Assembly (NCBI RefSeq): GCF_037975245.1
Contig: NC_092573.1
Coordinates: forward strand, 9,334,001 to 9,398,000
DNA: 64,000 nucleotides
Origin: Apostichopus japonicus
Taxonomy: Eukaryota; Echinodermata; Holothuroidea; Aspidochirotida; Stichopodidae
Direction: 5' to 3'
In this document: piece after piece, positions 10,020 through 64,000 of the stretch
Position numbering within the stretch: the first letter of the stretch is position 1
Layout of the letters: every line of letters starts with the position of its first letter
Notes under the pieces: model-generated
The model's database searches: none
Told to the model about the DNA's origin: nothing
The model's input: the letters and a program-made list of their open reading frames with translations, nothing else
Translations under genes and position numbers: made by a program

Positions 10020-10104
10020 ATGACGCGTTATATTCTCATAAACTGTCTTCTTCTTCTGGCTTTTGCTCTTCCAACGAAGTGTTGCTTGCTTTCAACGAAC
10101 GGAG
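10020..10104 (+). CDS. Gene A exon 1: signal peptide
   Basis: ATG at 10020 is followed by a hydrophobic core (ILINCLLLLAFALP) and CCLLSTNG, with donor AG|GTAAGA in phase 1. The same ending is found in exon 1 of gene B (CCLLSNNG) and gene C (CCLMSGSG), which fixes the start and donor. Confidence 0.75.
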
Positions 10105-13100
10105 GTAAGATAAACCCATATACTTATATATTTACAGCAATATATTTTATTGGTTCGACAAATTCAGCAAAACAGAACTACCAAGTAGTCATTTATATAT
10201 AATTGCAATAAGTCAAGATAAGATATTCGGTTAGTTTCACCAACATAACGCATAACTAGCGAGTAACCGTTTATCTATGTAATTAATCTCATGAACCTAG
10301 CAAATTGGGAAATTTCACTTTCTTTACAATATGTATGTATTAAAATCCGTTATTTGGAAGAACCTTAGCTAAAAAGAAATAACATTAATTGCATTGTTAT
10401 GATATATATATATATATATATATATTTATATATATATATGTATATATATATTTATATATATATATATATATATATATATATATATATATATATATATATA
10501 TACGTATATGAGTTTATATACTGCATGAAATCAACAATGTTATCAATTCACACTCAGAGATGTTTTAGCAAATTTGTATTTGTTGTATTCAGTCACATTA
10601 ATAAATAGCACATGTCTTCCTGTTGCGTAGGTTTTAGGCGACAGGTTTCGCAACCAATCTTTTACATATGATGTAAGTATATATTGGGTATGCAAACGTA
10701 CACGATCTTGCATAATTCTATCATAATTACTAACATGTTCAAGTGCCCCCCCCCCCCCAAGGAAAACCCCACAAACAAACGAGATAAAAATTAGGGACTA
10801 GCATGGAGTAAACTGTCGATAATCGCAAGATATGGAGAAATATCAAGACAATAAACAAGTAATAAACAATTATAAATTGATCATTTCCTACTTATACTAG
10901 ACGTTATGGTTTAGTCTCTTAAAATAGATCAGATAAATCCACTAGATGTGATTTCAGTGTTGGGGCGGGAGGGTAGGGAAGGGGGCGCTGCTAACTTGTA
11001 CATATTAATTGCTTCATCTGATAGATCTATAGGCAGTTTACAATAACGAACAAGCAATTAAAGTACCAATTCAAATATCGAGACAGAGAGAGAGTTCAAA
11101 GATTTTTTTTAAAGACTTTTATTCTATAAATGTGCAAGTACAGGGCCTTTGCAAACTATTGGTGCTTCTTCGTTTGAAGAATCACCCTCACGCCTATATG
11201 GTTGTGCGGAAATCACTACACCTCTACTGAATGTAACTTTATATACACAAACTATTTGAAGGTCCAAATGTAAGCATGAAAACATTACTTATAGCTAACT
11301 TCTTTGGATGTTAAAGAAAAAACATTTTAAAGTTTAATTCGAAAAGAGCGATGAATTTCTCTGCCAATTTTATGTTGTAGTAATTCTTATCAGAATGGTT
11401 AGCGTACACACAAGGTGGCTTCACTTGATTTCATGTTTTCATTCTTAAATATCGGTCCATAAAAGATCGTCAACTTTAATTTCCGAAAATTGTGCCAACC
11501 ATTCCATCCAAGTTTCCATATATAATTTTCCACTGGGGTAACAGCCTTTCAAGCCAATGACATAATTCTTATGAAACAGATTCTGAAGTACAGCTGCTGG
11601 TTTTGTCAATAACGTATGAAGGCACAAGAAAAAGTAAAACATTTTTGTCTTTTCAATTCTTATTCATTTCAAATTTGGGACTTCGTAGAACAGGGAAAAT
11701 ACTGCATCTGTATAAGAGGCAATCTTAGTATTAGTAAGCTAACATTCCCATTTAAAAAAAGAAGGTATATTAGGTCTATCCATTCAACGATGTAGTGTTA
11801 TTGCTTACATACCGTTAAAAAAATGTCCTGCTAGTTCATACTTGGAAACGGATATGCTTTCTGAGACTTACGGAACGAAGTGTTTTATTTCTTATGTTTT
11901 TTTTTGCATCTCTTTTATTTCATGTCTTTCTTTACAAACTTCCACATTTTGTAAAACATATAAACAATATATGGTGAAGTATTGACAAAGAAAAAGTCTT
12001 GCAACTTACTGTTGGTAGTGATCAGCAGCTCCATAGACAGAATGTAAAACTTTTGGAGTGAACAAGAAATCCAAAGACAATTATTATACACAGTACCGCA
12101 AAGTGAAAGCGATTGAAGAAGACTTGTACTTCTCAACCATTTCAAGTTTCTGTTGTTTGGTAAGAATGAAGAGTTCAGTCTCAAAAACGAACATCATTCA
12201 TTGCATCGGGAACCACGACCCTGTTCTTACATGTACAAAAAGTACTTTTAATGCAGAACAAAGAAGTTAAAAGGACTGTTCATTTGAACTACATCTCCTA
12301 AGATTAAAATCTATCCAATTTTCTCTCAAACAGTTAATGCAAATTGCATCTCCAACCTGTTTAATATTGGACGAAAATAGAAAAGGTACTTTCAATTTCA
12401 GAGCTACAAAATGAACAGCCTATAATTCTCTGCAGGAAACGAAAGTGAAAATATTTGAATCTTAGTCTTACTGACTGTAATAGACGGAATAAATGAAAAT
12501 AGACTTCCAATTACACTTATGACGTGGATACCTCTCCTCCTATTTACCTATGGCCTTTGGGTGGAGAATGTTATTCGTGAGAATAAATCTGTACACAAAA
12601 TATTCGGCTCTGGATTGTAAGGAGAATTTCAACAGTATAGGCGTTCATTAATGCCCTTTACTAACGTTTGACCTTCCATTACCTAGGAATTGCATAGTCG
12701 ATAGATCCTTGCATTTTCATAGTAATATGTGAAAGGAAAATTTTGAATATTATGCTTAATAACACATTTTGATATGACAAAATATGACCATGATCGGTGA
12801 AAAACACAGCAGTATAATACACCTCATTTTCTTTCAAAACTTCAAAATAAACAATACAATAAACAATTCTAATGCAACTTCTAGTTTTTATACAAAATGG
12901 CTAGCAAAATCCCCATCAGGTACTGAGGAATTCAAATGAGCCCATTGCAAGAATCACATACTTGACCGAATAAAGCAATTGAAAGTGATAATATCAGCTT
13001 TGTTAAAATTACAAGAAAAATAAATTCACGGCCATATTTTGCGTAAGGCATAATTAAAAAAAGTACTTTCCAAAGTCTAAAATGTTCGTCAATGTACATT

Positions 13101-63588: not shown

Positions 63589-63774
63589 GGTGAGATCATT
63601 CGATTTTGCTATGTGTTTCGAATGACTCATCAAACCAACGTCGTTACTGGGAGCACTACACAAAGGCGAAAGCATTTCAACCCCCTAACCAGAGGTGAGG
63701 GTTATTCGCTTGAGGTAAACGATGCTACATACAAAGGAACTAGACCAGCGACTATTATTGAAGATACGTATTGA
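63589..63774 (+). pseudogene. D terminal FN3 pseudo-exon, 3' part
   Basis: An open frame continues the interrupted exon (IIRFCYVFRMTHQTN ... IIEDTY and TGA at 63772-63774). The exon was therefore still intact when the foldback element landed. Confidence 0.82.
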
Positions 63775-64000
63775 GTATAAGTATTAAGAAGGATATTATT
63801 AGTAGTAGTCTATAGACTTGTTTTAGATTAATAGTCCTTTAATGTTAATTAACTTCATGGAATATTAAGGGAACCGAATAAATGTTCAATAAATCACAGT
63901 AAATTAAATTCACTGGAAAAAACAAACCCGCGAACAATGTAAGTAACTGATACGAATCAAATAAAACGAGGATTATGCTCTTAAACTAAACTTGTGTTTG

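Follow-up and report, generated by a model that had tools for sequence, protein, structure and literature searches.

A tandemly amplified family of predicted soluble FN3 proteins in Apostichopus japonicus, with replacement-only divergence in the terminal domain of one subfamily

The SpTransformer (Sp185/333) genes of sea urchins are described as clustered, segmentally duplicated and surrounded by repeats, and as encoding secreted, diversified proteins (PMC5940198). The gene cluster analyzed here resembles them, as it is also of echinoderm origin, segmentally duplicated, predicted to be secreted and diversified. To our knowledge SpTrf proteins lack FN3 domains, and a further difference is that the diversity of the present family consists of point replacements in one folded domain. 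FREPs and VCBPs carry fibrinogen/Ig domains or V and chitin-binding domains, whereas the proteins of our cluster are composed of FN3 domains plus a module that could not be assigned. Snail FREPs and protochordate VCBPs are mentioned as invertebrate recognition proteins that are diversified or contain variable domains (PMC5940198). EBR1 is introduced as a gamete recognition protein (PMC5521101). Divergence biased toward replacements, as in gamete recognition, is also found in the terminal FN3 of gene A described below. Such divergence is a known feature of bindin/EBR1 and lysin/VERL, and the domain make-up of these proteins differs from that of the proteins studied here. Receptor tyrosine phosphatase ectodomains share FN3 repeats with our genes, whose terminal FN3 is related to FN3 exons on contig C2. 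Unlike these receptors, and unlike receptor tyrosine kinases, the genes stop after the last FN3, and neither a transmembrane segment nor a catalytic domain was found in them. In the open-licence PMC literature, judged by titles and the beginnings of abstracts, we recognised no description of a family combining FN3 domains with the module.

Gene models and extent of the cluster

The whole stretch of DNA analyzed (64,000 nucleotides, C13:9334001-9398000) is referred to as the window, and the genome searched is a 671.6 Mb assembly of 35 contigs. Its mitochondrial code fits table 9, which points to an echinoderm assembly; this code is used by echinoderms and also by flatworms. In detail, the first 470 codons of COX1 on contig C35 contain 11 AAA codons, several of them at motifs like GGFGN and FPRMNN, which we take to be Asn motifs in COX1 generally, and AGA (Ser) and ATA (Ile) fit this table as well. 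The numbering of the long contigs, which reaches C23, would agree with the karyotype of a sea cucumber. Besides the full-length COX1 on C35, broken COX1-like pieces are located at C29:14745-31219.

In the window, GT/AG splice sites and phase-1 introns allow three genes to be read: A, with 530 aa, B, with 650 aa, and C, with 333 aa. The three genes share the order of a signal peptide, FN3 repeats, a Cys-paired module and a terminal FN3 followed by a stop, and genes A and B, but not gene C, contain an N-terminal module of about 97 residues behind the signal peptide, which is 71% identical between the two. The Cys-paired module is preceded by two FN3 repeats in gene A, three in gene B and one FN3-like repeat in gene C. 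The predicted signal peptides are of the CC-L type, and those of genes A and B end in KCCLLSTNG and NCCLLSNNG, respectively. The last exon of gene C was set to end at 53589, which keeps the stop in frame. The exons are:

10020..10104, plus strand: gene A exon 1, signal peptide (CC-L); ATG, GT donor, phase 1; also in copies A1 and A2
20933..21226, plus strand: gene A exon 2, N-terminal module (YGGRLA); AG/GT; 0/97 codons differ among A1-A4
21924..22232, plus strand: gene A exon 3, FN3-1; Pfam fn3 E 5.9e-12; omega 0.25 in 6 paralogues
22506..22811, plus strand: gene A exon 4, FN3-2; Pfam fn3 E 4.5e-12
23735..24049, plus strand: gene A exon 5, Cys-paired FN3-like module; at least 23 genome matches
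26021..26304, plus strand: gene A exon 6, terminal FN3 and stop; 28/93 codons vary in 4 copies; LRT p 2e-6; AF2 pLDDT 92.6
27940..28024, plus strand: gene B exon 1, signal peptide
30814..31104, plus strand: gene B exon 2, N-terminal module; 71% identity with that of gene A
31966..32271, plus strand: gene B exon 3, FN3; splice sites and frame
33089..33394, plus strand: gene B exon 4, FN3; splice sites and frame
34340..34645, plus strand: gene B exon 5, FN3 resembling exon 4; splice sites and frame; 87% DNA identity around exons 4 and 5
34970..35299, plus strand: gene B exon 6, Cys-paired module; 34% identity with that of gene A
36356..36684, plus strand: gene B exon 7, terminal FN3 and stop; Pfam fn3 E 2.1e-6; omega 0.82, not different from 1
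46698..46779, plus strand: gene C exon 1, signal peptide
50048..50353, plus strand: gene C exon 2, FN3-like as judged by where it lies and how long it is
50715..51026, plus strand: gene C exon 3, Cys-paired module; 42% identity with that of gene A
53288..53589, plus strand: gene C exon 4, terminal FN3 and stop; alignable with the other terminal exons

Downstream of gene C, a pseudogene (D) retains remnants of the module, FN3-1 and the terminal FN3, with a stop within the module, and a pattern search of its upstream region found no CC-L signal peptide. The terminal exon of D is split by an element of about 1.4 kb (62191-63588) with 155-nt inverted ends that are 96% complementary. The remnants are:

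59457..59579, plus strand: D module remnant; 56% identity over 41 residues
60291..60545, plus strand: D FN3-1 remnant; 70% identity
63589..63771, plus strand: 3' part of the D terminal FN3, split off by the element; 69% identity

Inspection by eye also revealed inverted ends (cgtatccagga / tcctggatacg and flanking bases) at about 57330-58670, which probably belong to another transposable element. A tRNA-Asp-like gene (ARAGORN, anticodon atc) on the minus strand at 47157-47230 of the window adjoins a long AT repeat and may be a tRNA-derived repeat.

In the genome, the N-terminal module has at least 17 matches, 16 of them on the plus strand at C13:8.87-9.55 Mb including pseudogene D, and one on the minus strand at C13:5.77 Mb. 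At least 23 matches were obtained for the Cys module (17 in the cluster, two at C13:5.75 and 5.82 Mb, one on C1 and three on C11) and at least 19 for the terminal FN3 of gene A, and wherever the last two were both seen, the terminal FN3 is located about 0.4-2.3 kb downstream of the Cys module. The A-B pair is present four times. Together with its upstream sequence the A-B unit forms a segmental duplication, in which positions 1-44078 of the window match C13:8.85-8.90 and 8.90-8.95 Mb in blocks of mostly 85-99% identity, and parts of a further A-B copy lie at C13 9.18-9.20 Mb. The complete copies A1, A2, B1 and B2 (C13:8.86-8.94 Mb) have canonical splice dinucleotides at 44/44 positions and no internal stop, and because splice sites and open frames are kept in these copies the gene models are not due to chance. 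Thus the three FN3 genes and the pseudogene reported in the earlier note hold up, with details corrected, and the tandem family proposed there turned out to be larger than that note had seen.

A Cys-loop ligand-gated channel-like frame at 654-1148 of the window (Neur_chan_memb E 0.00098, below the cut-off) was duplicated along with the A-B unit. Furthermore, the same cluster contains a diverged module subfamily (FGGR) at C13:9.436 and 9.554 Mb, which is 32-34% identical to the module of gene A, and satellite-like arrays are found at C13:9002723-9010026, where the offsets of self matches suggest a period of about 200 nt, and at C13:9013571-9050000.

Domain assignment and predicted solubility

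Ten pieces of the predicted proteins were scanned against Pfam, and FN3-1 and FN3-2 of gene A and the terminal FN3 of gene B passed the fn3 cut-off (25 bits). The Cys module of gene C gave a weak fn3 match under the cut-off (E 0.0015), and in the same scan the Cys modules of genes A and B gave none. The terminal FN3 of gene A was assigned by structure: the AF2 model, based on an alignment of eight sequences, is a confident FN3 (pLDDT 92.6), and proteins with FN3 domains, among them neogenin, sorLA and RPTP-F, make up most of the best 50 of 1,671 Foldseek matches in the PDB. A profile search of the PDB with the Cys module had its best matches at E 0.026 (retinol-binding protein 2) and 0.54 (RPTP-F), which is too weak to identify it, and therefore this module is left without assignment.

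The N-terminal module had already appeared unassignable from the letters alone, and profile searches and structure prediction led to the same result. No Pfam family matched member 1; the best hit was PGM_PMM_III, reaching E 0.12 at most favourable in two of 12 members and E 0.088 for the open frame of gene B, and the best PDB match (E 0.73) is not convincing. A prokaryote genome collection and viral contigs yielded 48 and 41 stretches matching one of two peptide patterns, none of which was confirmed by tblastn, a pattern scan being prone to miss distant relatives. The genome-wide search gave no module match beyond C13. The AF2 model from 12 paralogues is unusable for a fold search (pLDDT 43).

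In all 18 terminal exons that were read, the stop comes at or shortly past the FN3; in one exon 13 additional residues precede it. The 18 exons comprise those of A1-A4, B1-B4 and C, another four from the cluster and five from elsewhere, of which C1 contributes one, C11 two and C13 two (at 5.75 and 5.82 Mb); D, further cluster members and one C11 Cys match are not among them. As the terminal exons close with a stop, the proteins look soluble. This is in line with the hydropathy of A, B and C, which is strong at the signal peptide only, with no strongly hydrophobic segment past residue 40. Furthermore, tblastn with one kinase frame and three phosphatase-locus frames, one of them clearly phosphatase, gave no hit to a kinase or phosphatase in the window extended by 200 kb. 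A secreted architecture free of membrane or enzyme parts, as suggested in the earlier note, is thereby supported at the level of gene models.

Divergence of the terminal FN3 in subfamily A

The four compared copies of gene A (A1-A4) all come from one genome. In their terminal FN3 28 of 93 codons vary, and all 28 variable codons are replacements, with no silent one. The replacement and silent counts of the other exons are 0 and 0 of 97 codons in the module, 4 and 1 of 102 in FN3-1, 8 and 4 of 101 in FN3-2 and 12 and 3 of 104 in the Cys module, or 24 and 8 in 404 codons when these four exons are pooled. The terminal exon differs from the pooled exons in replaced codons (Fisher, p 1.2e-9) as well as in the ratio of replacement to silent codons (p 0.005). 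In pairwise comparisons of the terminal exon, 16.8-28 nonsynonymous stand against 0-1 synonymous changes, and its divergence of 6.0-10.0% compares with 1.5-2.5% in the adjoining 520 nt of intron and 0.3-1.9% in the 370 nt behind the exon.

Divergence between the A copies is uneven along the gene and ranges from 0 to about 13%. The intron 1-2 kb upstream of the terminal exon diverges by 5-9% with many gaps, which is as high as the terminal exon itself, and in front of the module A1 diverges from the other copies by 13%. Given this uneven background, the argument for selection depends on the absence of silent changes and on the nearest flanks. Under neutrality, the probability of at most one silent change among the minimum of 41 nucleotide changes is 1.6e-4 to 1.2e-5 for kappa 1-4. 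In an MG codon model, a free omega was preferred over omega 1 (LRT 22.4, p 2e-6), and the GY estimate of omega was at the program bound of 50. For the other A exons omega is 0.74-1.17 among the four copies and not different from 1; the unchanged module gives no estimate, and its identity in A1-A4 could partly reflect gene conversion. Diversifying selection on the terminal FN3 of subfamily A seems to be the best reading of these data.

A dN/dS above 1, which would mark a rapidly evolving recognition domain, was found for the terminal FN3 of A and not for that of B. Within the four B copies omega is 0.82 and neutrality is not rejected, and eight B-type terminal sequences gave 0.79 (LRT 1.6), which is likewise not different from 1. 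The exons from the module to the Cys module in three B copies have an omega of 0.38 (p 8.5e-4). Between diverged paralogues, omega is 0.25 for FN3-1 (six sequences, LRT 35.1) and 0.55 for the module (LRT 16.9); the latter value comes from nine of 12 aligned sequences, leaving out two near-copies of B and the copy at C13:5.77 Mb.

Mapped on the model of the A terminal FN3, the variable sites fall on 19 of 38 residues of the A/AB/B/C'E/E/EF side, 6 of 43 of the C-C'-F-G side and 3 of 12 in the BC stretch. This side bias has a p of 6e-4, with the sides defined after the sites were seen.

Proposed role and alternative explanations

Judged from their gene structure, the predicted proteins probably form a family of soluble FN3 proteins with several domains that was amplified in tandem and serves recognition. 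A recognition role had been raised as speculation in the earlier note; the replacement-only divergence of the terminal FN3 in four A copies speaks for it, and no such signal is present in B. In this proposal the N-terminal module would have an invariant task, either oligomerisation or docking to a partner in the host. Contact with a changing partner, for example a microbe or a gamete, would be made by the A-B-E side of the A terminal FN3. In the immune version, microbes would be bound and then passed on via the constant end. By analogy we tentatively regard a humoral immune role as the likeliest use, ahead of gamete recognition; we favour immunity because several versions coexist in one genome in the way they do in SpTrf clusters. 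With somewhat more reserve, we suggest that the genes could encode a repertoire of soluble echinoderm receptors, in which a constant module is combined with the terminal FN3 as a natural variable domain. Its variation would lie mainly on the A-B-E side, as opposed to the BC/DE/FG loops used in engineered monobodies.

The strongest competitor, which we consider possible but rather unlikely, is that the proteins serve reproduction as secreted factors of the egg-coat, seminal or sperm-associated kind, and that a gamete partner coevolves with their terminal FN3. Selection of the same signature together with duplication would be found in this case too, but several differing copies side by side look more like a repertoire than like a lock for one partner. 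The present sequence data agree with immune and with reproductive use alike.

It is less probable still that the genes encode soluble derivatives of receptor tyrosine phosphatases, or decoys for them, which compete for ligands with the many phosphatases encoded in this genome. A decoy function toward receptor kinases or phosphatases had been considered before; it is weakly supported by two FN3 relatives of the terminal FN3 on C2 (E 2e-5 and 8e-5), with which a descent from phosphatase-receptor ectodomains is possible. Each of these two exons has a GT donor behind it, phosphatase exons follow on the same strand after about 20 kb, and FN3 domains of RPTP-F are among the best 50 PDB matches, alongside those of many other FN3 proteins. 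However, the identity is only 30-34%, the membership of the C2 exons in phosphatase genes is deduced from their position, none of the at least 23 Cys-module matches is on C2, and the N-terminal module is confined to C13. Among the matches listed, phosphatase sequences are numerous on C2 and C16 and kinase sequences on C17, C18, C19 and C21, and both look like large arrays.

Relaxed constraint on decaying duplicates, in place of positive selection, appears very improbable. Decay is common in young duplicates, D is a pseudogene and the other A exons have an omega near 1, but relaxed constraint predicts such a value for the A terminal FN3 as well, where omega 1 is rejected, and silent codons are missing among the 28 variable ones and the frames are open in A1, A2 and A4. 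Patchwork gene conversion among paralogues, which could inflate the apparent divergence of the terminal exon and would agree with the uneven divergence along gene A, is hardly to be expected either, as older donors would bring silent differences (silent-only codons 0/28) and the exon has little divergence in its nearest flanks, upstream as well as downstream.

The proposed diversifying selection on a soluble recognition protein provides a narrow, testable target, namely one exon in four near-identical genes where each variable codon alters the protein, and the N-terminal module represents an unassigned domain that deserves a structure. If the proteins bind gametes, they would be a new fertilisation protein; if they bind microbes, deuterostome immunity would gain a humoral recognition family.
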